Source: an uncultured Lachnospiraceae bacterium
Lineage (GTDB): Bacteria > Bacillota > Clostridia > Lachnospirales > Lachnospiraceae
Assembly: GCA_946544235.1 (NCBI GenBank)
Contig: CAMNMC010000105.1
Span: 1 to 64,000 of the forward strand
DNA: 64,000 nucleotides
Direction: 5' to 3'
Shown here: one piece after another, positions 8,423 to 63,276 of the stretch
How positions within the stretch are numbered: the stretch's first letter is position 1
How the letters are laid out: every line of letters starts with the position of its first letter
Translations under genes and position numbers: made by a program
The notes under the pieces: model-generated
Seen by the model: the letters and a program-made list of their open reading frames with translations, nothing else
Told to the model about the DNA's origin: nothing
Database searches by the model: none

Positions 8423-9619
8423 CTAGTTTACACCAAAGAGTTCAGCAATCTTAGCTTCATCCAGCTTGCTGCCGATAACGCAGAGCTTTCCGGTATAGTC
8501 AGCAACGCCCTCTCTTACCTCATACTCGCCCGGCACAAGGTCAAACTCAAGCCACTTGCCCTCCTTGTTAGGGATGATTCCCTTGGCACGAAGGATGATA
8601 CCGAACTCATTGTCCTCTTCAACTGCAAGCTTATCAAGTATAGCCTTGAGATCTGACTCATCATATTTGTGAGCTGTCTCTCTGCCCCAGCTTGTAAATA
8701 TCTCATCTGCATCATGTCCGTGATGATGGTGATGATGTCCGCAGCTGCATACTCCGTTCTCATCATAGTGATGGTGATGCTCGTGTTCATCGTCATCATC
8801 ATCATCATCATCATCGTCGTGGTGATGGTGGTGATGTTCATGCTCCTCGTCATCATCGTCGTCATGATGGTGGTGATGTTCATGCTCGTCGTCATCATCG
8901 TCATCGTCGTCATCATGATGATGTCCGCAGCTGCATACTCCATTCTCATCATAATGATGGTGATGATGGTGATCATCCTTCTCAGGATCATATTTGAAAT
9001 TCTTCATGATATCTTCTATAGATGAAGAATGCTCAATAGCATCAAGTATAACCGTACCATCGATCTGATCCCAAGGTGTTGTGATGATCCTTGCGTCAGC
9101 GTTATGCTCCTTGATCATATTTACGACCTCAAGAAGCTTCTCTTCGGTCGCATTCTGGCTTCTGCTGAGAACCACGGTTCCGCAGGCCTCTATCTGATTC
9201 AGGAAAAACTCACCAAAGTTCTTGATATACATCTTAGCCTTGGTAACATCAACGACAGTTGTTGCGCTGTTAAGCTTGATATCGACATCAGCCGATGCTT
9301 TCTCAACCGCCTTGATAACGTCTGAAAGCTTACCAACACCCGATGGCTCGATAATAACTCTGTCCGGCTTATATTCACTTACAACCTTCTTAAGAGCCTC
9401 TCCGAAATCGCCAACAAGTGAACAGCAGATGCAACCTGAATTCATCTCGGTGATTTCGATTCCTGCCTCCTTAAGGAAGCCTCCGTCTATTCCTATCTCA
9501 CCAAATTCATTTTCAATAAGTACAACCTTCTCATTCTTAAAAGCATCCGCAATAAGCTTCTTGATAAGTGTTGTCTTGCCGGCTCCGAGAAAGCCTGAAA
9601 TAATATCGATCTTTGACAT
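8423..9619 (-). CDS. COG0523/CobW family GTPase with long His/Asp-rich metal-binding insert
   Basis: MSKIDIISGFLGAGKTTLIKKLI, ENEFGEIGIDGGFL, MNSGCICCSL (CxCC), SQNAT; insert DDHHHHHHYDENGVCSCGHHHDDDDDDDDDEHEHHHHH...HHHHYDENGVCSCGHHHHHHGH; CobW C-terminal domain after it. Confidence 0.93.
   Translation of the reverse strand: MSKIDIISGFLGAGKTTLIKKLIADAFKNEKVVLIENEFGEIGIDGGFLKEAGIEITEMNSGCICCSLVGDFGEALKKVVSEYKPDRVIIEPSGVGKLSDVIKAVEKASADVDIKLNSATTVVDVTKAKMYIKNFGEFFLNQIEACGTVVLSRSQNATEEKLLEVVNMIKEHNADARIITTPWDQIDGTVILDAIEHSSSIEDIMKNFKYDPEKDDHHHHHHYDENGVCSCGHHHDDDDDDDDDEHEHHHHHDDDDDEEHEHHHHHHDDDDDDDDDDEHEHHHHYDENGVCSCGHHHHHHGHDADEIFTSWGRETAHKYDESDLKAILDKLAVEEDNEFGIILRAKGIIPNKEGKWLEFDLVPGEYEVREGVADYTGKLCVIGSKLDEAKIAELFGVN
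8715..8980. repeat. CAT/TCA trinucleotide-rich low-complexity DNA encoding the His/Asp tract
   Basis: Long runs of catcatcatc / gatgatggtg on the + strand; the flanking modules encode HHHHYDENGVCSCGHHH twice. Confidence 0.85.
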
Positions 9620-11633: not shown

Positions 11634-11694
11634 CACGCACATATATATCTGTACATATGTATTTACTACACTGAATCAGATATATATGTGCGTG
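11634..11694. repeat. Long perfect inverted repeat, divergent member of the conserved-loop hairpin family
   Basis: cacgcacatatatatctg (11634-11651) and cagatatatatgtgcgtg (11677-11694), 18/18 complementary; 25-nt loop tacatatgtatttactacactgaat shares GTATTT-(n)-CTACA-CTGA with the 37.27 kb loop. Confidence 0.7.
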
Positions 11695-18487: not shown

Positions 18488-18546
18488 GTGATCAGGATAT
18501 GTGTTCAGTTGTAGCAAGAATACGCCTTCACACATATCCTGATCAC
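18488..18546. repeat. Conserved-loop hairpin, copy 1 of the 95-bp array
   Basis: gtgatcaggatatgtgt (18488-18504) / acacatatcctgatcac (18530-18546), 17/17 complementary; loop tcagttgtagcaagaatacgccttc (18505-18529). Confidence 0.9.
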
Positions 18547-18736
18547 TCACTCATTGGCTTCAATATTGGATATAATCCATCCAGAATATGTATATGCATT
18601 CAGTTGTAGCAAGAATACGCCTTCACACACATCCTGAGCACTCACTCATTGGCTTCAATATTGGATATAATCCATCCAGAATATGTATATGCATTCGGTT
18701 GTAGTATGAATACGCCTTCACACACATCCTGATCAC
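18505..18736. repeat. 95-bp-period tandem array carrying three copies of the conserved loop
   Basis: Loops start at 18505, 18600 and 18695 (spacing exactly 95). The spacer cactcactcattggcttcaatattggatataatccatccagaatatgtatatgcat is repeated almost identically. Confidence 0.9.
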
Positions 18737-20059: not shown

Positions 20060-21742
20060 TTATTTCTTCAGCTCAGCCTCAGAATCGAAGCAGGTTTCGA
20101 TAGCAGCGCCAGGTGCAACCATTGGCCAAACCTTGTCATCCTGATTGATAACGCACTCGATGAGGTAAGCTCCCTCGCCGTTTATAGCTTCTCTGATTGC
20201 CTTCTCAAACTCTTCTACTGTTGTAGCTCTGAGTCCCTTTGCTCCGAGAGCATCAGCAACCTTTACGAAATCAACCTTATCGTTGAGAATTGTATTTGAA
20301 TATCTCTTGTCATAGAACAGTGTCTGCCACTGTCTTACCATACCGAGAACATGATTGTTGATAACAACTTCAATAACATGTGTGTTGTATCTTGCTGCTG
20401 TTGCAAGCTCGTTCATGTTCATTCTGAAGCATCCGTCACCGGCAATATTTATAACAGTCTTGTCAGGACAGCCTATCTTGGCACCGATAGCAGCTCCTAG
20501 ACCGTAGCCCATTGTTCCGAGACCGCCTGATGAAAGGAACTGTCTTGACTTCTTATACTTATAATACTGTGCAGCCCACATCTGATGCTGTCCAACATCT
20601 GTACAGATGATCGCATCACCATTAGTCTCTTCATATATCTTATTTATAACCGCAGGACCTGTAAGGTGCTCCATATCATATGTAAGAGGATACTGCTCTT
20701 TGATAGCCTTGATCTCATTCATCCACTCAGGATTCTTCTTTGCAGAGATCTTGGTATTGAGTGTCTTAAGAACCTCAACGGCATCTCCTACTATCTTGGC
20801 ATCAACCTCAATGTTCTTATCAATCTCAGCCGCATCGATATCGATGTGGATGATCTTTGCATTATTTGCAAACTTTGATGCATTTCCGATAACACGGTCA
20901 GAGAATCTTGCACCTACAACTACAAGAAGGTCAGCCTTGTTAACGCCAAAGTTTGAAGCCTTGGTACCATGCATACCGATCATTCCTGTATATCTCTCAC
21001 TTGTACCGTCAAATGCGCCCTTACCCATAAGAGTATCGCATACAGGAGCATCTATCTTCTCAACGAACTCCTTAAGTTCCTTCGATGCTCCGGAAAGTGT
21101 AGCACCACCACCTACTAAAACGAAAGGTTTCTTGGATGCATCAATTATATTTACAGCCTTCTCAACGTCATCACTCTTGATCGTTGATGTGACCCTTGCG
21201 ATAGGTTCAGGCTTATGATATTCATAATCAGCAAAACTTGCTGTAACGTCCTTGGTAATATCAACAAGAACAGGACCAGGTCTTCCGGTCTGTGCGATCT
21301 TGAATGCACGTCTGATGGTATCAGCCAGTTCGTGAACATTCTTAACAATAAAGCTATGCTTTGTTATAGGCATAACTACGCCTGCTATATCAACCTCCTG
21401 GAAGCTGTCCTTACCAAGGAGTGAAACGCCTACGTTAGCAGTGATCGCAACAAGCGGAATTGAATCCATATATGCTGTTGCAATACCTGTTACAAGGTTT
21501 GTTGCACCAGGGCCTGAGGTTGCCATACAAACGCCGACCTTGCCGGTAGCTCTTGCATAGCCGTCAGCTGCATGTGCTGCACCCTGCTCATGTGAAGTAA
21601 GTATATGTGTTATCTCGTCCGAATGCTTATAAAGTGCATCATAAACATTAAGGATCGTTCCTCCCGGATAACCAAATACGGTATCAACTCCCTGCTCTTT
21701 AAGGCATTCAATTACGATTTCTGATCCGTTTAACTGTTTCAT
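20060..21742 (-). CDS. ilvB: Acetolactate synthase large subunit
   Basis: [38 protein letters not shown]...[47 protein letters not shown]. The upstream in-frame extension to 21880 is judged untranslated. Confidence 0.96.
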
Positions 21743-22056
21743 GTTTTTTCTCCTGTTTTTGTATATGTTAATATGTACCGTTTTTATGATAATGTGAATC
21801 GCTCCGTTTCTTCGAAACTCCCGCAATTCTGCTGACATTCGGAATCCACTGTTATCCTTCGAAAAGAGATTCTTCCTCATGTCCGGTGAGTAAAGCAGCC
21901 ATGCGGCAGATCATGAAATCATGACTGCCAGCCGGCTCTCAACTCTATCATCATATAATTTAACGAAAATACAATATTTGTCAATACCCGATATAACTAT
22001 TTAAGGTTATGGATTGATTATTTTCCGTTATATTTGTTCCGCTTAACAAGAAGCCT

Positions 22057-37197: not shown

Positions 37198-37250
37198 TTT
37201 GTCCTCCATATGATAAATAAAAATTGTTAGCTTGTAATAATCCTCGCAGA

Positions 37251-37314
37251 GTATGCACCAGTATACCTCTGAAGGAGTATTTGGCTACAACTGAAGAGGT
37301 ATACTGGTGTATAC
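37251..37314. repeat. Conserved-loop hairpin (inverse orientation)
   Basis: gtatgcaccagtatacctct / agaggtatactggtgtatac (19/20 Watson-Crick plus one G-T); loop gaaggagtatttggctacaactga (37271-37294). Confidence 0.88.
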
Positions 37315-37328
37315 CCTTAGTTGTATGA

Positions 37329-41067: not shown

Positions 41068-41130
41068 ACCTCATCCGCACTGGAAATATCTTGTTTGTTT
41101 TTCTCAGTGCATATATACCCCTTCGCGTGC

Positions 41131-41238
41131 CATAATTCTGCAAGCAGAATTATGCATACATCATTTCATGACGTATGTAGCATGCTTCGCATGCTGCATC
41201 ATTCGCTTCGCTCATGATAGCAATATGCTTCGCATATT
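41131..41238. repeat. Run of five tandem short hairpins
   Basis: cataattctgc-aa-gcagaattatg; catacatcat-ttc-atgacgtatg; agcatgc-ttc-gcatgct; atcat(tcgcttcgctc)atgat; aatatgc-ttc-gcatatt. Confidence 0.85.
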
Positions 41239-41243
41239 ACTAC

Positions 41244-41278
41244 TTAGTTGTAGCAAGAATACGCCTTCAAGGGCATAT
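41244..41278. repeat. Conserved-loop element (24/25 match) with partial right arm
   Basis: ttagttgtagcaagaatacgccttc followed by aagggcatat. Confidence 0.8.
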
Positions 41279-41302
41279 CTTTACGATTAAACTTTTCTTT
41301 AA

Positions 41303-42739: not shown

Positions 42740-42812
42740 GGATTCAGTAATAGCTATACCCCTTCAGTTGTAGCAAGAATACGCCTTCAGGGGTATAGCT
42801 ATTACTGAATCC
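42740..42812. repeat. Conserved-loop hairpin with longest perfect stem
   Basis: ggattcagtaatagctatacccct (42740-42763) / aggggtatagctattactgaatcc (42789-42812), 24/24 complementary; loop tcagttgtagcaagaatacgccttc (42764-42788) identical to copy 1 at 18.5 kb. Confidence 0.93.
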
Positions 42813-49978: not shown

Positions 49979-50302
49979 CTGGTTTCCCTCCGTATGTATA
50001 TATTTCATAGAATAATGCAAAATATGCATCAGCCAGCCGTATCACGCGATGTAAAAACAAGTCCATTCATTTATATAAGCTCTTTATGTTCCTGCCTCGA
50101 ATTCTTCTTCTGGTCTTATCGTAGATAAAAATTTTTTAAATGAGATTGTTATACTCACGCCTCTATCTTACCACAACTCAAGGTGTAAATCACTAATAAG
50201 TTTTTTAAGTTTTTTTGAGACAAAATGGGTGGATTGTGATATAATTTTAAAGGTTATATGCCGTTTTTTACGGTTAAATGATGTGTGGAGGAAATACTTG
50301 TA

Positions 50303-53300
50303 ATGAAGGATACAAAAAGCAGCAATAATACAGCCATTGATACAACGAAAGAGAATAATAAATCAATCAAAAAGAAAGACAAAAACACTAAAGAAGGACT
50401 GCCAAAGAAGCACGAAAAAAGTCTTCTATACGTACTTGCCTTTGCCATACCATTTGCAGTTGCTCTGATCGCACTTGCCATGGGAGGCTTTGCTCCGTTC
50501 GGAGATAAGGATGTTCTGACAACCGGCGGCTTTGAAAAATACAGATATTTTCTTAATGATCTGCATGACAAGGTGAATGAAGGGACGATAAACACTACAG
50601 GTCTGGTATCATCACAGGGATACAGTGTATCCTCTTTCTGGGCTTATTACCTTTCAGATCCGACCAACCTCATCACTCTGCTCTTCTCCAAGGACAGTAT
50701 GGCAGATGTGCTGAATCTTTTATATGCCATAAAGCTTGGTCTTGCAGGTCTCTTCTTCAGCTTCTTCCTTTCTTACAGAAGACGTATTTCTGCAGAAAAG
50801 AAGCTCGTTATGGAAGGCGAAAGAGCTGATATCATAACCACCTACAGAGAGAAGATAGCCGCTAAAAAGAAGGCAAAGCTTGTTGCGAAGAGTGGTGCCA
50901 AGAATGCCAAGAACCAGCAGTTTGATGTTAAGCTGGGAGGAACTGATGACCCTGAGGGCGGCGCGCTTCTCTTCCTTAAGAAGTTTGATATGATCACTCT
51001 CGCTCTTTCAGTTACCTATGCACTTTCAGCATATATGCTCGGAAGCGGACTTAATGTTACATGGCTCGGCGCTGTAGCTGTATTTCCGCTTGTAATGCTC
51101 GGCATAGATAAGCTTGTCAACGAAAAGAAATGGCTCTTCTACACGCTTTCTCTTGCCGTATCCTTCTATATGAATTTCTATATAACGATCATTGTATTTA
51201 TCTTCACTTTTGTTTATTTCTTCCTTCAGGATTACAGAGATACAAGACATATCGTTACTACAACACTTTATAAAATAATGAGTGATATATTGGCGATCGG
51301 AACCGCGTCTCTTGTAATAGTTACATCGATGAGAAGCAGTCTGATGAGCAGTATGCTTTCACTTGAGTTTCCTTATGCAGAATCCAGTGTCAAGATATTT
51401 GACGTCATCAAGTATCAGCTTGCCGGTGTTAAGCCTGATGCCGCAACAAAAGGTTCAGACGGCGTAATGATCTATGCAGGTATATTTGTCCTGCTGCTCA
51501 TTTTCATGTATGCACAGAACGGCAACATCAATCTGAATACACGTATCAGGAACATTATTCTTACATCTGTTCTTTATGTTGCAACCTTCCAGACCACACT
51601 AAATTATCTCTTTAATGGTTTCTACTATACTAGTACAAATTCAACAGTTTTCGGATTCATACTTATATTCATGCTGCTCCAGATAGCAGAAAGCGTTCTG
51701 ACAAATATCGAGCATCAGAGAGGCACAACAGTCACAGTATCATTTATCATTTTACTGGGGCTTATCTTTGCGTCACTCTCACTTTCATCAAACTATACTT
51801 CAATGTCACCTTTCATGACGAGTCTTGAGCTTGCTGCATTATATTTCTTCATAGTAATCCTTTACAGAAATGACAGTATGACTCACATACTCTTCAAGAC
51901 TGTTTTCGGTCTTGCTGTTATAGCTGAAATAGCCGTATCCTTCGTAAATGGTCTCAGCAGTTCAGGAAAGAAATCAATAACTTACGCTGAGACAGACGTT
52001 GCAAGATACGAAGCTGCCGAAGATCACATCCATGAAACAGATCCAAATGCAAAGGTGGATGTATTTATAGATGGTCAGAGTTCTTCAAATCCAGTTACAA
52101 ACATGCTTGCCGGCATAGATTACGTTATAGCACTTGAAGGTACAGATCATATTGTAGATTACCTCGACCACCAGGAAACCTACAACGGAATTGAAATATA
52201 TAAGAACAGAGTCTCTGTTGATAATGGTTTCTTTGTAGACGAAGAAGTCAAAGATATTGCTTTTGATGACGAAGAAGTATTTAAATCATTGAATCTTCTA
52301 ACAAAATCACTTGGAGACGTAGAATGCTTCGATCTGCTTTCCGGTAGTTTTTCTGCCGAACGTGTTTTTAAAGTTGAAAATGATGATTTTATTGAGACGC
52401 GTGATCTCAGGCTCACTTTTGTAACTCCAACAACAGGACGTCTTTACGCTACAATCCTTGGAGATGTGGTCTGTCTTGGCGAAAAATTTTACGATCAGAC
52501 AACCATGTTTGTTTATACTCCTCACAACAAACCATCTATTTACCTGCTCACGCAATGCAGCTATGCAAATATTAATGTCTCTGAATATGACAAACTGTTC
52601 GATTCGATCAGGGTTAATGCCTCTGCCTATACAAATGACAGCAGACATATTTCCTACAATGCTGAATCAGATGGTTATATTGCTCTTCCATATGATCCGG
52701 ATTCCGGTTATGAAATATCGGATGCTGCTTATATCAGAATTCTTGATACAGAATACTGTCTTGTTCCGGTTAAGGCCGGTTCAAATGATATCAGTTTAGA
52801 GGTTGATAACTGTTCTATGGTTACAGCCATAATTCTGACTGTCATTTCTGTAATCTGTCTTATCGCCGTGGCAATGCTCGTCAGGTCAAAAATAGCCGGC
52901 AAATCCGAAGTTACGGAAAAGAATGGGGAATCAGTCAGATTCGGACGTCTTATATCCTTTGCTTCATCAAACAGAGTTTACATACTTTTATTTGCGATCA
53001 CAAGTATGGTCTTCTGTATGCTGCTCTTTCTCAGATCAACAACACCATTTGGTAAAGGACTGTTCCTTACACATGACGGAATGCATCAGTCTTATCCAAA
53101 TATAACCGGAACCATCAAATCATTATTCAGTGGTGATTTCAGCCTTGTTGATTATCATGTTGGAGCAGGAATAGATAATTATGTAGCAAACTTCCCGCTG
53201 ATCATAATACCTGTTTATTATTTAGTTGCACTATTCCCACTGTCAAAAATGCAGCTTTGTTTCACTCTGATCAGTTATATCACTTTTCTTCTTCCGGGAA

Positions 53301-55603
53301 TGGCTCTGCTGGTATATCTCACACACAGACCGCGCGGAAAGAAACTCGAGAAAACAAATCTCCTTCTGTTACCACTTGCGCTTGCATATAACCTTTCAGC
53401 CTTTGTAGTATCATATATTTCACACGTAGGCTTCGTTCAGCTGGCTATTCTCTTCCCGCTCTTCATTCTTGCCTTTGAGAGACTGATATATAACAAGAAA
53501 TATCTTATGTACGTGATAATACTCTCTTATATGATGGTATGGGGTGTATATTATGCCTTTATGGTTGCTGAATTCACCGTGCTTTATTTCCTTTGTTCCG
53601 AATTTGATGGTGTTAAGGATTTCTTCGTAAAAGGCATCCGAACACTCATCTATTCAATTGTGTCTGCAGGACTCGCTATGGTAATGATACTTCCATATTA
53701 TCTTTCAACACTTTCATCACCATACAAGGGACTTGACAGTTCAGTGCCGGGATTCAGCTTTGTTCCTGAATTCTTTAATATCTTTGACTTTATGAAGACA
53801 GGCTCTAAAGCTGTTATCATTACCGAACATGATTGGCATGTTAACCTTTACTGTGGCTTACTGATATTCCTTCTGATTCCAGTCTATGCTTTCATAAAGA
53901 ATATTAAGCCATCCATTCGCATCAGAAAACTTGTTTTGGCCGTATTTTTGTTCATATCATTCGGAAATCCTTTCCTGAACTTCGTACTTCATGGTTTCCA
54001 CGTACAGTCTAAGGTTCCTAACAGATTTTCATTATTCCTTATATTCCTGATCATTACCATGGTTTACGATATAATAGTTAATGCTTCAGATTATAAGCTT
54101 ACGTTCCCGGCATTTTCCGGTATGGTAGCTCTCGGAGCAGCTTTATCAGTTATCTTCATCATGAATGATAAAGGTACGTTGAACCTTTCAACAAAGGTCA
54201 GCATCACTTATATAGTGATCTACCTGGCTATATTTACACTTGTAAAAGTAAAAAAGAAACATCTAAATATTATGAAGCCATTATCACTGCTTCTGATATC
54301 AGAGCTTCTGTTTTCAACTTTCTATCTAACAAGACATGATATTCTCGGATCACATTATACATCTGAAGATAAGTCATATTATACAGCCGAGAAGCTTATT
54401 GAAAATAATGATCTGGACAAATACCATGATCGAACAGAATACCTGTCATCTCATCTTAACAGTTCGATGTTCCTCGGTACTGAGTCCGTTTCTATTTTCC
54501 ATTCAAATATGACTTCTGCAAATATCGATTTCGCCAGAATACATGGTTTAGGTGTTGCACCAATAACCAATAATATTAATTATACTCTTACCAACCCTAT
54601 AGCTGATCTCTTCCTGAATGTAAGATACCACATAATTAACGATTACTTTGAAGATAATCTTACCTACAGCTATATGAAGGAAATCGACTCATCTTCTAAC
54701 CTGACGTTATATGAGAATCCATATGCTGTTTCATTTGGTTTCTTTATTGATAAAAACAACATCTATAACAAACTCAATGATGGCTCTATTTATAATGATC
54801 AACCATTCGTGAGTCTCATGGATACTCAGAATCTCATTGCTCGTGAGATGACCGGTTCAGATTTGTACGATCTTATCGAGATAGAAACCGAACTTGAGAA
54901 TGTGACCGAAAAATCCTCATACATCATGACAGATGATTCTGAATTTGATGATCCAAATAACGAAGAACCTGTTGCTCATGTTAAGGTTGTCCTTGGTGAG
55001 GACATTACGGGCGATATCTATGTAAGTTTTGGATTCTTTGCATATCTTACTGATAAGGAAACAACAGATGTAAAAGAAATATACTTTGATATTGACGCTG
55101 ACAGGTATTATACATATTCAGGCAGCACCTTCTATCTTGCAAAGCTGAATGAGGATACTCTGGCAAAGATGCATGAAACTCTTTCCATAGCACCTCTTAC
55201 CGACATCAAAGACACCTTCAATTCTATCAGCGGAAATATAAACGCACCTTCTGACGGTACAGTTTACATCTCCCTTCCATATCAGGATGGATGGACAGCA
55301 ACCGTTGACGGCAAGGATGTAGAGATAGTTGAATTTCTTGAAGGAATCGGAATTCCGGTCAGTGCAGGTCAGCATAAGATTACTATCAGTTATATGACTC
55401 CGGGACTTAAAGCCGGTGGACTTATCAGTCTTATCACTCTCATACTCTTCATCGGTTTTATAATATTTGATCGCAAGGTTCTTTCAAAACGTAAAAACGA
55501 TGAGGATACGACTGATGAAGATGAATCTGTCAAAGACGAATCTGTTGATTGTAATTCAGATGATAGCGCCTCTGAGGCAGCTGAGGTCAGCAATGAGGCA
55601 TAA
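50303..55603 (+). CDS. Very large YfhO-like membrane protein with two consecutive YfhO-type modules
   Basis: About 1766 aa. Module 1: YVLAFAIPFAVALIALAMGGFAPFGDKDVLTTGGFEKYRYFLNDLHDKV...; module 2: STTPFGKGLFLTHDGMHQSYPNITGTIKSLFSGDFSLVDYHVGAGID...; C-terminal ISLPYQDGWTATVDGKDVEIVEFLEGIGIPVSAGQHKITISYMTPGLKAG. Confidence 0.88.
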   Translation: MKDTKSSNNTAIDTTKENNKSIKKKDKNTKEGLPKKHEKSLLYVLAFAIPFAVALIALAMGGFAPFGDKDVLTTGGFEKYRYFLNDLHDKVNEGTINTTGLVSSQGYSVSSFWAYYLSDPTNLITLLFSKDSMADVLNLLYAIKLGLAGLFFSFFLSYRRRISAEKKLVMEGERADIITTYREKIAAKKKAKLVAKSGAKNAKNQQFDVKLGGTDDPEGGALLFLKKFDMITLALSVTYALSAYMLGSGLNVTWLGAVAVFPLVMLGIDKLVNEKKWLFYTLSLAVSFYMNFYITIIVFIFTFVYFFLQDYRDTRHIVTTTLYKIMSDILAIGTASLVIVTSMRSSLMSSMLSLEFPYAESSVKIFDVIKYQLAGVKPDAATKGSDGVMIYAGIFVLLLIFMYAQNGNINLNTRIRNIILTSVLYVATFQTTLNYLFNGFYYTSTNSTVFGFILIFMLLQIAESVLTNIEHQRGTTVTVSFIILLGLIFASLSLSSNYTSMSPFMTSLELAALYFFIVILYRNDSMTHILFKTVFGLAVIAEIAVSFVNGLSSSGKKSITYAETDVARYEAAEDHIHETDPNAKVDVFIDGQSSSNPVTNMLAGIDYVIALEGTDHIVDYLDHQETYNGIEIYKNRVSVDNGFFVDEEVKDIAFDDEEVFKSLNLLTKSLGDVECFDLLSGSFSAERVFKVENDDFIETRDLRLTFVTPTTGRLYATILGDVVCLGEKFYDQTTMFVYTPHNKPSIYLLTQCSYANINVSEYDKLFDSIRVNASAYTNDSRHISYNAESDGYIALPYDPDSGYEISDAAYIRILDTEYCLVPVKAGSNDISLEVDNCSMVTAIILTVISVICLIAVAMLVRSKIAGKSEVTEKNGESVRFGRLISFASSNRVYILLFAITSMVFCMLLFLRSTTPFGKGLFLTHDGMHQSYPNITGTIKSLFSGDFSLVDYHVGAGIDNYVANFPLIIIPVYYLVALFPLSKMQLCFTLISYITFLLPGMALLVYLTHRPRGKKLEKTNLLLLPLALAYNLSAFVVSYISHVGFVQLAILFPLFILAFERLIYNKKYLMYVIILSYMMVWGVYYAFMVAEFTVLYFLCSEFDGVKDFFVKGIRTLIYSIVSAGLAMVMILPYYLSTLSSPYKGLDSSVPGFSFVPEFFNIFDFMKTGSKAVIITEHDWHVNLYCGLLIFLLIPVYAFIKNIKPSIRIRKLVLAVFLFISFGNPFLNFVLHGFHVQSKVPNRFSLFLIFLIITMVYDIIVNASDYKLTFPAFSGMVALGAALSVIFIMNDKGTLNLSTKVSITYIVIYLAIFTLVKVKKKHLNIMKPLSLLLISELLFSTFYLTRHDILGSHYTSEDKSYYTAEKLIENNDLDKYHDRTEYLSSHLNSSMFLGTESVSIFHSNMTSANIDFARIHGLGVAPITNNINYTLTNPIADLFLNVRYHIINDYFEDNLTYSYMKEIDSSSNLTLYENPYAVSFGFFIDKNNIYNKLNDGSIYNDQPFVSLMDTQNLIAREMTGSDLYDLIEIETELENVTEKSSYIMTDDSEFDDPNNEEPVAHVKVVLGEDITGDIYVSFGFFAYLTDKETTDVKEIYFDIDADRYYTYSGSTFYLAKLNEDTLAKMHETLSIAPLTDIKDTFNSISGNINAPSDGTVYISLPYQDGWTATVDGKDVEIVEFLEGIGIPVSAGQHKITISYMTPGLKAGGLISLITLILFIGFIIFDRKVLSKRKNDEDTTDEDESVKDESVDCNSDDSASEAAEVSNEA

Positions 55604-57333: not shown

Positions 57334-60300
57334 TTAAGTCAGATCATGAAGTTCAGGCTTAAGAATGATCTTAATTCTTGTGTAAATCGGATCACCCTTT
57401 GAAGGAATTACCTTTACAACGATATATGTATATTCATTATTGTAGAGATAGTTATCCTGAATCTCAAGCATTGATGGAGTAATCGTCGTACCATTAAGGT
57501 TATAAGGTGTACCCTTAAGAGCTGTATCCTCATCAATCCATAAGAGATATCCGGAAGCTATCCATGGATTCTCTGTCTTGCTATATGTACCAGACTTATT
57601 GAAATTCTTGTCATATACAAGTACATGCTTTCCATCTTCTGAATGATATTCATCATCCGGATTTACTTCATCATAATCAAGATCGTAGTAAGCTAAAACT
57701 TCTGCTATCTCAACTGAAGAATCTGATGTAAAGAGAGATGAGAACTTAGGAACTGAACCCTCTGTTATAGTCATCTTGTAACCAAGTGTACCATTCTCCT
57801 GTACAGTCTTATTTGTAAGACTTGAAGACTGAATAGTACCTGATGAGGTCACAACCTGTGATGAACTATGATCATAAAGGTCAAGAGTTGAATTCTTCGT
57901 ACTCTTACGTCCTGTGTTAAGAATAAGGTTAATGAAGAATCTACGCTCATCGTTATTCTCTCTCTTGTAACCTGTTACAACTGTACGTCCAGCACCAAGA
58001 TACGTTACTGTACCTGCATTGTTACCCTTTGGCTGATACTGGTATACAAAGTAATTGTTACCACCATCAAGAGGGTTTGCTGCATAGTTCGATGACATCG
58101 TACCGGATGTACCACCTGATAATGAATAGTATACAATGAGATTCTCATCAGCAACATTGATCGTAAAATCACCTTCAACTGTTGGTGTAACACGGAGATT
58201 AGCACCGATACTGAATGGATACATTGTAACTATACCTTCATTATTCTGTTCTGCGGCATTCGTTGCTACATAATTCTGTGCTGCAAACTGCATCATATCT
58301 TTTCTCGGATGGGTCTTTCCTTCCGCCTCAAGATTTGGATAATATAAGCTGTAATTAAATGTGGTTGACTTATCTGAATCAGATGTCTGACCAAGCGCCG
58401 TAGCATATGTTAGTTTTGAAGGATTAAGTGCAAGTGGAGCACTATTACCACCACCATTATCGCCTGAATTCTGTTCTTCTTTAATAATAGCATTCGAAAC
58501 AGTTATACTAACTGAAGATGTCCCTCCATTACCTGGAATAGAACCTTTTTCAGCTCCATTAACAAATACTCTTCCACCCGAACCATAATATTGATTTGAA
58601 CTAGTTGCTGTTATATTAATCTTAATATTATGTTTTCCGTAGTTTCCTTCATTACTGGTTCTGTTATCATAAGCTGTAATACTAAAGTCGCTTCCTATAT
58701 TACCATTGTAATTAATAGTAATATTTACTTCTGTAGCTGCTGTATCAACTGTATAAGTTCCGAGAGCTCCAGAATTCCAAGGATCCAATATATCTATTTT
58801 TATGGTTCCTTCATAAGTATCTTCTGATGTTGATACATCTGATCCACCACCTGATGTGATATCAGACTCAGGCTCTGAATAAGCATTCATACCAAAGTAC
58901 GATGAAAGCCTTTTAGTCATATTTGCAGTGGAATTTGTTGATCCATATTTATCACCGCCAGATGTAAGTGAATCATAGAAAAGCATTGTCTGACCACCAT
59001 CATTGATATATTTAATGATAGAATCAATAGCAGCGTCATTAAGATCACCACCAGCAAAGTTTTCAGCCGCACCAAAAACGATACAGTTATAATACTTTGC
59101 AAGTTCAAATTCACCTGAATCATTTACAGCTGCAAGCAGTGTATAATACTCAAACATCTTACGGAAGAACTGCTCATAAATCTTTCCATCACGCCAGTTT
59201 TGATATTCACTCGCATATCCGGCCGGTACATGTCCACCTGACTGATAGAGTGAGAAGAAATCATAATAAGGTCTGTCTGAGTAGTTATCAAAAGACAACT
59301 CATAATCTACTTCTCTGGCTAACACAGCACTACCGGATCTGTAACTGAGAAGAAGATTCTCGAGCTTACCTCCTGAGGTTGCAAAAACATCAAGAATTGT
59401 TTCGAAGTTAGAATACAGGATTTCAGAAAGCTTCTTTTCCTTGTACTCATTGACCCAGTTCGTTCTTTCTTCACCTGTAAGAGCCGGAGTAAGCTTATCA
59501 ACTTCTGCTTCAGCCTCAAGCTGTGCAGCTAATATTTGAGCGTTAGTTGGAGCAATACCGTAACCCATTGCATCTTTCCTGAACAAATACTTCTGAATGG
59601 CTGATTTTTCATTTGTTGTGAGTCCACCATTTTTCACTTCATTCTTGTATGTTCCATTAACAACCTTCACCATACCATTATAGGCATTCTGGAATTCAGA
59701 GGCTGCTATAGAGAATTTACTTCTTAAAGTCTTAATCTCAGAAGTATCTTTGCCATAATAAAGATCATTTATATCGTCAATTAGTTTCTCAAACTCACTG
59801 ATATAGATGATATTCATATTAACATCATAATCATTCTCAACTTCTCTGAACCAGTTTGTATTCCAGTCATCAAGCCCTGTCCAATTACCGGAATCTGTGG
59901 TGAGATCACTAAAATACTTAACTATTCCAAACCTGTGCTGATGTACACCCAGTCTAGTTGGTATACTAAATCCAAACTCTCCCGATGTACCATAATCCTG
60001 CATGCCTTCAAGATAAAGTGTACTGTCTGTATTCTGAGCACTGGAAATATAGTGTTTGATATTATTCTCTACAGTGGTGGTTTCGCCAACACTTGTCCAA
60101 CCGCCATCCATAGGATTTCTATCAGTGAAACCGGCAGTTAACTTTAATACGGAGTCATCTCCATACTTGTTAAGAGCAATTCTGTTACCATGAAGAACAA
60201 ATCTTGATTCCTGACATTCTGTACAGAGGAACAATGACAATTTACTGTTATCAGAACCGTTCTTCTCTTCCTGTGTACCATCCGGCATAATCTGAAGAAG

Positions 60301-63276
60301 ATTAACTTTAATCTTTTCCTGATTTGTTCTCTTAATCTTGAGACATCCTGTTGTTGATGCCTTTGAGCCTGAATTATTCTCAACCTCAAGTTTCCAATAT
60401 ACAACACCAAAGTAATCAGGATCAAATTTCTTTGAAAGCGTTCCCTTAGCGCCATCCTCTGTATCAACTATTTCATCAGCCTCGAAACGACTGTTTGCAT
60501 TATCATCGATATAGAGACGACCGGTAAATCCGGCTCCGCCAGCTGCTTCATAACTCCATCTTACAGTACGATCTGTTATCCAGGTTGACTCATCGCCTTC
60601 CTTGTACTGAACAGGAGCACTGGTAATAACAAGCTTAGGTCTCTTAGAGGAATCATTAAGTACTCTTCTAAGATCAGCTTCGTTTACGCTTGATGAATCA
60701 ATGGTAACAGGATTACCCATATAATCCTCGAGTTCATTACCACTAAATACAGTTACATAGCCATCATAAGTATTTCCGTACGCTCCTCCGGCATTCTGGA
60801 TCTTAACCTTGTCCTCAAAATTGAAGTTCCAAAGTATATTATCCTTACCGTTTGCATGATCAGTCTGACAAGCTGTAAGGAAACTATACATGTAAGAATC
60901 CGGATCAATTGCATTTCTTCTTGCAGAAGTCAAACCGGCGCATGCATCTTTACCGATTATAATCGGCATGCCGTTCTTCTTATACTCCATAAGCTCGTCA
61001 TACTTATTCTTGCTTATGTCATTACCCTCAAGGGTTCCTACTGAGCCATCGCTTGCGCCATATTTCTGCGAATAATCATAAGCATCACCATTTGTAAAAT
61101 ACATATTGTAGGTATCAAGACCAATGCTGGCAAGCTTTGATGAATGGTAAGCGTTTAGATTCTTAATTCCGGAATTATCGCCTCCAATATATATCGCATC
61201 AAAATTATCAAGAACCGTCTTCTTCGTACAATTAAATTCGTATGTTGACATATGTACAACATTAACTTCATTGTATTCAAGGCCAGTTGCATGAGCTATC
61301 TTGGCTTTTGAAAGTGTCCACGCATAATAATCGGTTACAGTTCCAAGCTGAGCACTTGTTATATTATCTCCGCTCTCAAGGAAAGTTGTAAGTGAATGTT
61401 CTCCATCAAACGATATCTCATCTGAGGTTGTATTATTTATAACTCCTTGATTTCTAATATAATACCAACTGTTATTTGCCGTATTTGCATATTCGCCTGA
61501 TGACATTGGTCGATCACGTCCGGTAACCTTAGCAAAAGTCATATTGGCAACATATGGATTGTTCTCAAGAGGATCAGTATATCCTTTTATATGATTACCG
61601 CCATCAATTTTAGCAAATTTTTTAGCAAGCGTTGTATCTATCGGATAAGCAGGCTGAATCTCAAGTACTGTGTACAGATTTGAGGAATCACCATTACCAC
61701 CACCGATACCTCTGTATGAAGCATAGTTGATGATATCTGCAATATCCTTGACAGCTTCCTTATTATTAGCTGACATATAAACCTTCATTCTCGAAGGACT
61801 GGTTACAAGAATATTATCATACTTACCAACTTCTGTTGAGGTCATAGTCTTTCCACAAACATAGAGGTAATTCTGACCATAATCTGTATCATTACTTACG
61901 CTGTTATCGATACTTCCGGTAGCAAGAGAGCTATCATAAAGTATACAAACATTACCCATCATAGCACTATACAGATTATTATAATTCTCCTGACTAAGCA
62001 TTGTTAATCCGGCTGCTGCCTCAACGATAACTATATCATATGCTGCATAATCTATAGTATCGAGTGCAGGATCACCACCATCATAATAATCATAGGTTAC
62101 AAATCCCGGTATATTCTTACGACTTGCATAAGCTGATCTGAGCGGAGAATCCTCCTTAATGCTATACAGATTCTTGGTATATACAGCTGCATCTGCTGTA
62201 GCCTTATCGATAAGTTTGATTTCATTACCATCCTTATCAACCGTATCAATAGCATATGTTTCTCTTGTATCAGCTGTTACAAGCTTGTAATTAAGGCCTT
62301 CCGGTGTACCATCGTTTAATGGCTCAAGACCGATCTTGGTAAGATCAGATATCTTCTTCTCAGAACCACCCTTTCCTATAACAAGGATACTTGCGGTGTT
62401 ACCAAGCTTATCGTTAAGCTTATAATACTCGCCGCCTTCAACTACATCCTTGACTGCATCACCTGATGTAGCTATCTCACCATCAGCAAGGTTTGTAAGA
62501 TCATAATTAGATAAAGAGCAAAGTCTTACCCATCTTGATTTTCTCGTAGAACCATCGATCTGAATATAGTAAGAGGTTTTATGTGTAAAGTAATCAAGTG
62601 GTGAAGTCTGTGTTGTAGGATTCCACTCAGTTGTGAAATACTTACCACCCTTCTTCTTAAAGCCATTTGTTGCAAGATCGCCATAAGAAGCAGAATTATC
62701 ATCAATTATTTCCTGTGTAGCAACAGGTCCATCGATGATGAATGGGACATAATCACCAACAGCAGCACTACAGAGCTGTAATTTGATCATCTCTGGGATA
62801 TCATTACTGTTCTTTCCGAAGAAATTGTACGGATCATTATGAACATATATGAGATCTGCCTTTGCTATTGCATCAATACAATTCTGGATTGCAGCATCAG
62901 ACATATTAACAGTATCATATGCCTTATAATCGATCATGCCTTCCTTCATTGACTGATCAGTGATTGTTTTGTATCCATTAAATACATATTCAGTAAATAT
63001 CTCTGAAGTATTTGATCCGCTCATTGCTGAATAGCTGCTGCTTGAACTGATCTCAACAATATGGAAATACGGATCAGAGCCACTATTTGAATTCTGTACT
63101 ATTCTATCAATATTGTAAATCGTTACAATATCGATATCCGGTTCAGCTTCAACAGTATTGGTAGTATCTCCGCCTCCGTCTGCCGCCATAGTGAATGAAA
63201 GTACAGTAACAAATGCGCATACAACTAACAGAAGTGATAAAGCTGCAACTAAAATCTTTTTATTAATTTTTCTCAT
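57334..63276 (-). CDS. Very large secreted protein, DUF5057-like
   Basis: 1980 aa; signal peptide MRKINKKILVAALSLLLVVCAFVTVLSFTMA; DPYFHIVEISSSSSYSAMSG..., IKVNLLQIMPDG repeat-like motifs; resemblance to DUF5057 is by recall. Confidence 0.7.
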   Translation of the reverse strand: MRKINKKILVAALSLLLVVCAFVTVLSFTMAADGGGDTTNTVEAEPDIDIVTIYNIDRIVQNSNSGSDPYFHIVEISSSSSYSAMSGSNTSEIFTEYVFNGYKTITDQSMKEGMIDYKAYDTVNMSDAAIQNCIDAIAKADLIYVHNDPYNFFGKNSNDIPEMIKLQLCSAAVGDYVPFIIDGPVATQEIIDDNSASYGDLATNGFKKKGGKYFTTEWNPTTQTSPLDYFTHKTSYYIQIDGSTRKSRWVRLCSLSNYDLTNLADGEIATSGDAVKDVVEGGEYYKLNDKLGNTASILVIGKGGSEKKISDLTKIGLEPLNDGTPEGLNYKLVTADTRETYAIDTVDKDGNEIKLIDKATADAAVYTKNLYSIKEDSPLRSAYASRKNIPGFVTYDYYDGGDPALDTIDYAAYDIVIVEAAAGLTMLSQENYNNLYSAMMGNVCILYDSSLATGSIDNSVSNDTDYGQNYLYVCGKTMTSTEVGKYDNILVTSPSRMKVYMSANNKEAVKDIADIINYASYRGIGGGNGDSSNLYTVLEIQPAYPIDTTLAKKFAKIDGGNHIKGYTDPLENNPYVANMTFAKVTGRDRPMSSGEYANTANNSWYYIRNQGVINNTTSDEISFDGEHSLTTFLESGDNITSAQLGTVTDYYAWTLSKAKIAHATGLEYNEVNVVHMSTYEFNCTKKTVLDNFDAIYIGGDNSGIKNLNAYHSSKLASIGLDTYNMYFTNGDAYDYSQKYGASDGSVGTLEGNDISKNKYDELMEYKKNGMPIIIGKDACAGLTSARRNAIDPDSYMYSFLTACQTDHANGKDNILWNFNFEDKVKIQNAGGAYGNTYDGYVTVFSGNELEDYMGNPVTIDSSSVNEADLRRVLNDSSKRPKLVITSAPVQYKEGDESTWITDRTVRWSYEAAGGAGFTGRLYIDDNANSRFEADEIVDTEDGAKGTLSKKFDPDYFGVVYWKLEVENNSGSKASTTGCLKIKRTNQEKIKVNLLQIMPDGTQEEKNGSDNSKLSLFLCTECQESRFVLHGNRIALNKYGDDSVLKLTAGFTDRNPMDGGWTSVGETTTVENNIKHYISSAQNTDSTLYLEGMQDYGTSGEFGFSIPTRLGVHQHRFGIVKYFSDLTTDSGNWTGLDDWNTNWFREVENDYDVNMNIIYISEFEKLIDDINDLYYGKDTSEIKTLRSKFSIAASEFQNAYNGMVKVVNGTYKNEVKNGGLTTNEKSAIQKYLFRKDAMGYGIAPTNAQILAAQLEAEAEVDKLTPALTGEERTNWVNEYKEKKLSEILYSNFETILDVFATSGGKLENLLLSYRSGSAVLAREVDYELSFDNYSDRPYYDFFSLYQSGGHVPAGYASEYQNWRDGKIYEQFFRKMFEYYTLLAAVNDSGEFELAKYYNCIVFGAAENFAGGDLNDAAIDSIIKYINDGGQTMLFYDSLTSGGDKYGSTNSTANMTKRLSSYFGMNAYSEPESDITSGGGSDVSTSEDTYEGTIKIDILDPWNSGALGTYTVDTAATEVNITINYNGNIGSDFSITAYDNRTSNEGNYGKHNIKINITATSSNQYYGSGGRVFVNGAEKGSIPGNGGTSSVSITVSNAIIKEEQNSGDNGGGNSAPLALNPSKLTYATALGQTSDSDKSTTFNYSLYYPNLEAEGKTHPRKDMMQFAAQNYVATNAAEQNNEGIVTMYPFSIGANLRVTPTVEGDFTINVADENLIVYYSLSGGTSGTMSSNYAANPLDGGNNYFVYQYQPKGNNAGTVTYLGAGRTVVTGYKRENNDERRFFINLILNTGRKSTKNSTLDLYDHSSSQVVTSSGTIQSSSLTNKTVQENGTLGYKMTITEGSVPKFSSLFTSDSSVEIAEVLAYYDLDYDEVNPDDEYHSEDGKHVLVYDKNFNKSGTYSKTENPWIASGYLLWIDEDTALKGTPYNLNGTTITPSMLEIQDNYLYNNEYTYIVVKVIPSKGDPIYTRIKIILKPELHDLT

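Follow-up and report, generated by a model that had tools for sequence, protein, structure and literature searches.

Several described families of dispersed hairpins resemble the repeats reported here. The REP/REPIN elements that go with RAYT are likewise short, palindromic intergenic repeats of high copy number, sometimes clustered (PMC2817692, PMC3733652). REP elements keep the palindrome and a Y1 (RAYT) transposase, whereas in the present hairpins the stem is variable and no Y1 gene was found in the host genome or in its relative G303. ERIC, NEMIS/Correia and the Efa stem-loop repeats are likewise dispersed and intergenic, occur in tens of copies and form RNA hairpins, and cotranscription and effects on mRNA stability have been proposed for them (PMC1590033, PMC2267715). 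Sponge mitochondria also contain families of dispersed repetitive hairpin elements, thought to be mobile, and the paper that describes them sets these elements against structured RNAs (PMC2800124). The family described below was met in a 64-kb stretch of DNA (the window, taken at its full length) and, as in the definition of intergenic stem-loop repeats (SLS), consists of dispersed stem-loops in tens of copies.

Hairpin copies in the window

Family members in the window are collected in Table 1. The first-pass annotation had described the perfect 24-bp inverted repeat with its 25-nt loop at 42.7 kb, the identical loop at 18505-18529 on a different, also perfect, 17-bp stem, and related loops at 37271-37294 (inverse orientation) and 41244-41268. 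All of these were borne out, the loop at 41244-41268 having one mismatch to that at 42.7 kb, and to them are added the loops at 18600 and 18695, the member at 11634-11694 and the long-form nature of the 41.2-kb copy. The loop of this last copy had appeared stemless because it is part of a long, multi-branched form; its basal stem is weakened.

Table 1. Location and character of the hairpin-family members in the 64-kb window.
Feature	Coordinates	Strand	Remarks
Diverged short-form member	11634..11694	+	Perfect 18-bp stem; 25-nt loop TACATATGTATTTACTACACTGAAT; G303 orthologue is a typical copy
Short-form hairpin	18488..18546	-	serC-serA gap; perfect 17-bp stem unlike the one at 42.7 kb
Two tandem 95-bp units	18592..18727	-	Loops 18600-18624 and 18695-18719; pairing of arms lost
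Short-form hairpin	37248..37317	+	Inverse orientation; flanked by the 37329 gene and purL; loop relative 37271-37294
Long form, ~190 nt	41105..41290 (ends approximate)	-	argR-recN gap; tip 41244-41268, then multi-hairpin domain
Short-form hairpin	42740..42812	-	Perfect 24-bp inverted repeat with arms 42740-42763 and 42789-42812; loop TCAGTTGTAGCAAGAATACGCCTTC

By chance, 0 loop matches of this kind would be expected in the window, and the three simple window hairpins have folding z-scores of about -7 to -11 against shuffles. The copy at 42740..42812 (covariance-model score 87.8 bits) lies in the tlyA-nadK gap and is built of a 24-bp basal stem, a GA/GA internal loop, an inner stem and a 7-nt apical loop. 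That at 37248..37317 has a 20-bp stem with one non-Watson-Crick pair and is missing in two relatives. Judged by Pfam domain, the neighbours of the window copies are serC/serA, purL, argR/recN and tlyA/nadK.

Elsewhere in the window, a Clostridiales-1 RNA (RF01699) was found at 21787-21953 (-) with 80.5 bits; it overlaps the 5' end of the ORF at 20060-21880, whose start codon may lie further in. Runs of CAT/ATG repeats at 8703-8921 correspond to a histidine-rich stretch in the ORF at 8423-9619, and 50285-55603 and 57334-63276 each hold an exceptionally long ORF (1772 and 1980 aa).

A genome-wide family with a conserved tip

Genome searches by pattern and by covariance model turned up many further copies of the conserved loop, whose lack would have counted against the first-pass reading. 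In the host genome the loop pattern has 49 copies and the reversed control 2, and a model seeded on 29 short copies gave 77 host matches, 5 of which were opposite-strand duplicates, leaving ∼72 distinct sites in a genome that is 82% complete in 119 contigs (model E-values are rough). The tip exists in a small number of distinct versions, with CUUG, UUAU, UCAC or UUAG as the variable nucleotides; its constant part, GGCGUAUU...CUAC, is invariant, GA almost always faces GA, and the inner stem is longer in some copies (GGCGUA...UACGCC).

The palindromic stem itself is not conserved, outer-stem identity between copies being 0.34-0.35 against 0.26 for random sequence. Host copies with an identical tip are no more alike in their outer stems than the others (0.337 vs 0.354; permutation P 0.79). 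Toward the base of the stem the information content declines, and past ±24 almost none is left; the base itself is only weakly GATTC-like. Flanks of the type AAACA/GG...CC-GTNCG are common to a subset of copies (among them window 42740-42812, L151, L099, L153, L110 and L104); such flanks could be an additional basal module or reflect a preferred insertion site, and their AAACA part exists in an empty site of the genome G160.

The long form (∼190 nt) is represented by 19 host copies, in which the basal stem's 3' arm is preceded by a ∼120-nt domain of extra helices. This domain directly follows the tip in all copies but one, which bears a further insertion. Its consensus fold is multi-branched, with both-sided changes in 29 of 69 pairs, several of which fall within the inner helices. 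Identity with a described Rfam family, left as a possibility by the first-pass annotation, was not found: neither form gave a match above the gathering cut-off. The RT-5 RNA (RF03026) matched the 42.7-kb hairpin over its full length at 28.7 bits, below the cut-off of 45.7, and on the complement of the selected strand.

Distribution was narrow. Among 299 genomes of the bacterial family, matches (loop pattern, or model E <= 1e-7) occurred only in the host and one congener. Across 61 genomes of the genus, under stricter filters than those behind the host-genome count, we obtained 67 copies in the host, 44 in G303, 14 in G160, 7 in G330, 2 in G300, 1 in G351 and 0 in the others. SerA identities of 91-96% place the host, G303, G160, G300 and G330 in a close group that includes G299 (92%), which has zero copies. 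The family is restricted to gut bacteria of a single genus, and within it to a small number of close species. The nearest named genomes found were Eubacterium sp. RGIG2622 and E. ruminantium, in neither of which did the covariance model detect a copy. In the former, the tlyA-nadK, argR-recN and purL gaps are 22-34 nt long where the window has 120-236 nt, and the tlyA-nadK gap, at 22 nt, contains no hairpin. Viral, phage and plasmid collections gave no match to the family.

Covariation and the selected strand

The basal stem (∼24 bp) differs from copy to copy with its pairing kept, which the first-pass annotation had read as compensatory covariation; this reading is strongly supported, both across copies and between orthologous copies. 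Gauged across copies by shuffle and slide controls and without tree correction, the covariation score of short-form pairs was 0.684 vs 0.194 shuffled, with both-sided changes in 25 of 31 pairs. Double-change cells numbered 238 vs 67 in shuffles, and the signal was lost when the partner was slid. By hand count, copies L147 (G303) and L331 (G160) differ at 6 of 19 stem pairs (2 double, 4 wobble-compatible, 0 broken), and L157 (G303) and the window copy at 11634 at 7 of 18 (5 double, 1 single, 1 mismatch).

Non-Watson-Crick stem pairs distinguish the two strands. With G.U and A.C treated alike and one recurrent position excluded, 41 G.U stood against 5 A.C on one strand (P ∼6e-6, composition-based expectation); looser counts of 33:5, 91:8 and 65:6 favoured wobbles, and the symmetric 41:5 is the trustworthy figure. 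The folding strand is therefore GAAGGCGUAUU...CUACAACUGA (GAAGGCGUAUUnnnnCUACAACUGA), and selection for folding acts on this strand. The G.U:A.C ratio was still 11:1 in copies that are antisense to both flanking genes (P 0.015, with orientation called by simple ORF picking and copies that are not fully independent). The orthologue pairs and the wobble bias are support of another kind than tree-aware covariation statistics. Of the structured RNA or protein-binding element proposed from the first reading, it is the structured-RNA part that gains by the one-strand G.U preference and the covarying long form.

Orthologous sites and mobility

Sister genomes hold both filled and empty sites. Of 16 G303 sites compared with G160, 14 are empty in the latter, the flanks being mostly 82-93% identical, and of 15 G303 sites with flanks located in the host, 7 are also filled there. 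As 7 of 15 is far above the few per cent that would be filled by chance, copies are mostly old and were lost singly, or else gaps were hit again. Some filled/empty junctions share 2-6 nt, which may be target-site duplications or, just as well, deletion repeats; in L331 the stem is retained and the tip was deleted between TGAAGG repeats. One candidate, that stems are made anew at each insertion, had been raised by identical tips on unrelated stems and was dropped: orthologues show compensated drift and the shared sites are old.

The serC-serA gap holds three tandem units in the host, a long form in G303, none in G160, and in G300 a short form with a near-host stem and a diverged loop. Long hairpins with other loops occupy it in G299 (L279) and G330 (L281), so that hairpins of any kind may be attracted to this gap or needed there. 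In G318 (L291), a more distant congener, it contains tandem ∼30-bp units (TGATCATTCCGAATGAA...CGTGAACAG). Another short repeat, unrelated to the hairpins, lies in G303 (C10 L242:7243-7360) and has matches at several sites in both the host and G160.

Searches for a mobility partner gave no Y1 (RAYT) transposase in the host (82% complete), G303 (100%) or G330; one is present in G299, a genome without hairpin copies. A RAYT partner was rejected on the lack of Y1 in G303 and the unconserved stem. No reverse transcriptase was found in G303 (100% complete, 44 copies), and the host genome has one; a retron or other RT-associated RNA was rejected because the copy-rich G303 does without the enzyme. Terminal inverted repeats common to all copies, a MITE-like feature of ERIC and NEMIS/Correia, were not found either. 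The small mobile element put forward in the first-pass annotation is only partly upheld: the filled and empty sites of sister species suit it, no transposase partner or shared terminal sequence was found, and the shared sites indicate old insertions with later loss.

The main rival reading, possible if rather unlikely, is that the hairpins are a non-autonomous mobile element moving via a folded single strand (RNA or ssDNA), with the fold selected at transfer and most copies lacking a host function. The well-matched flanks of filled and empty sites, the strongly varying copy number, the occurrence of both orientations and of short and long forms, and wobbles that are strand-specific regardless of host-gene orientation would all suit such an element, whose enzyme would nevertheless have to be neither a Y1 transposase nor a reverse transcriptase in the complete, copy-rich G303. 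Its ends, moreover, would be the variable part, as conservation does not reach past the base of the stem; where non-tandem copies share a tip their stems are unrelated, so that recent copying is not seen; occupancy common to the host and G303 indicates old copies; and the pairing of orthologous stems was maintained after insertion.

Position at gene boundaries and proposed role

All 49 host copies examined are intergenic. Flanking genes are co-directional in 41 of the 47 copies with both neighbours known (31 sense, 10 antisense), and in sense copies the stem mostly ends 10-50 nt upstream of the next start codon. On balance, we consider it probable that these hairpins are clade-specific dispersed intergenic structured-RNA repeats that act mainly as intercistronic mRNA hairpins. 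From the observed fold, strand and gene-boundary position we infer that most copies would be transcribed together with the operon and that the hairpin could have a cis effect on the operon mRNA where two genes meet, as a nuclease barrier, a processing or stability element, or an insulator of the next ribosome-binding site. A ribonuclease or RNA-binding protein of the host may bind the conserved tip. Dispersal would have taken place before or around the split of the few species, with loss copy by copy afterwards.

Some observations sit uneasily with intercistronic mRNA hairpins. Copy number ranges from 67 to 0 in close species, single genes tolerate the absence of a copy, and one orthologue (L331) keeps the stem without the tip. 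The wobble bias of antisense copies weighs against a purely cis mRNA role because the operon mRNA is the other strand; it better fits a transcript of their own or a folding step during dispersal. A bolder and more doubtful proposal is a new class of structured-RNA repeat, with short and multi-branched forms, that colonised gene boundaries via a folded single strand without RAYT or reverse transcriptase, each site keeping its own stem while exchange, or a dedicated binding partner, holds the tip in common genome-wide.

Template switching from arm to arm (quasi-palindrome correction) is an established mutational mechanism in bacteria and may speed up the change of stems. That it keeps neutral palindromes perfect here with no selection on folding is, for all the length and near perfection of the stems, very improbable: it predicts a G.T:A.C ratio near the composition ratio of 0.585:0.415, where 41:5 was observed, and it leaves unexplained both the near-invariant tip and the long form's short helices, which covary.

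Least credible of all are intrinsic terminators with a common loop, largely refuted as a general role by the 25-nt loop, the T-run after the stem in only 3 of 73 copies, convergent neighbours in only 9 of 71 oriented copies and the location of most copies in co-directional runs adjoining a downstream start, even though a few copies (L132, L134, L136, L137, L097) have A- and T-tracts and L155 of G303 takes the place of two terminator-like hairpins in G160.

Comparison with known systems

Read as structured-RNA repeats, the hairpins matter in several ways. Taken alone, the long form is already a structured RNA with good support, and Rfam has no entry for it. Should the tip be read by a protein, dozens of operons would stand under one undescribed post-transcriptional signal. 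The shallow depth of the family (few close species, with filled and empty sister sites) makes it a natural experiment on the origin of RNA repeats, the co-change of their stems and their loss.

No bacterial repeat with a conserved loop and a variable stem was described in the open-access literature searched. Compared with ERIC, NEMIS/Correia and Efa repeats, the present hairpins hold the tip, vary the paired stem and add a multi-branched form (PMC1590033, PMC2267715). In the sponge mitochondrial elements stems are conserved and loops vary (PMC2800124), whereas the present family shows the reverse, the pattern of a structured RNA. In many hairpin repeats on record it is the stem that is conserved, and they are ascribed to RAYT or MITE movement; the family described here does the opposite.
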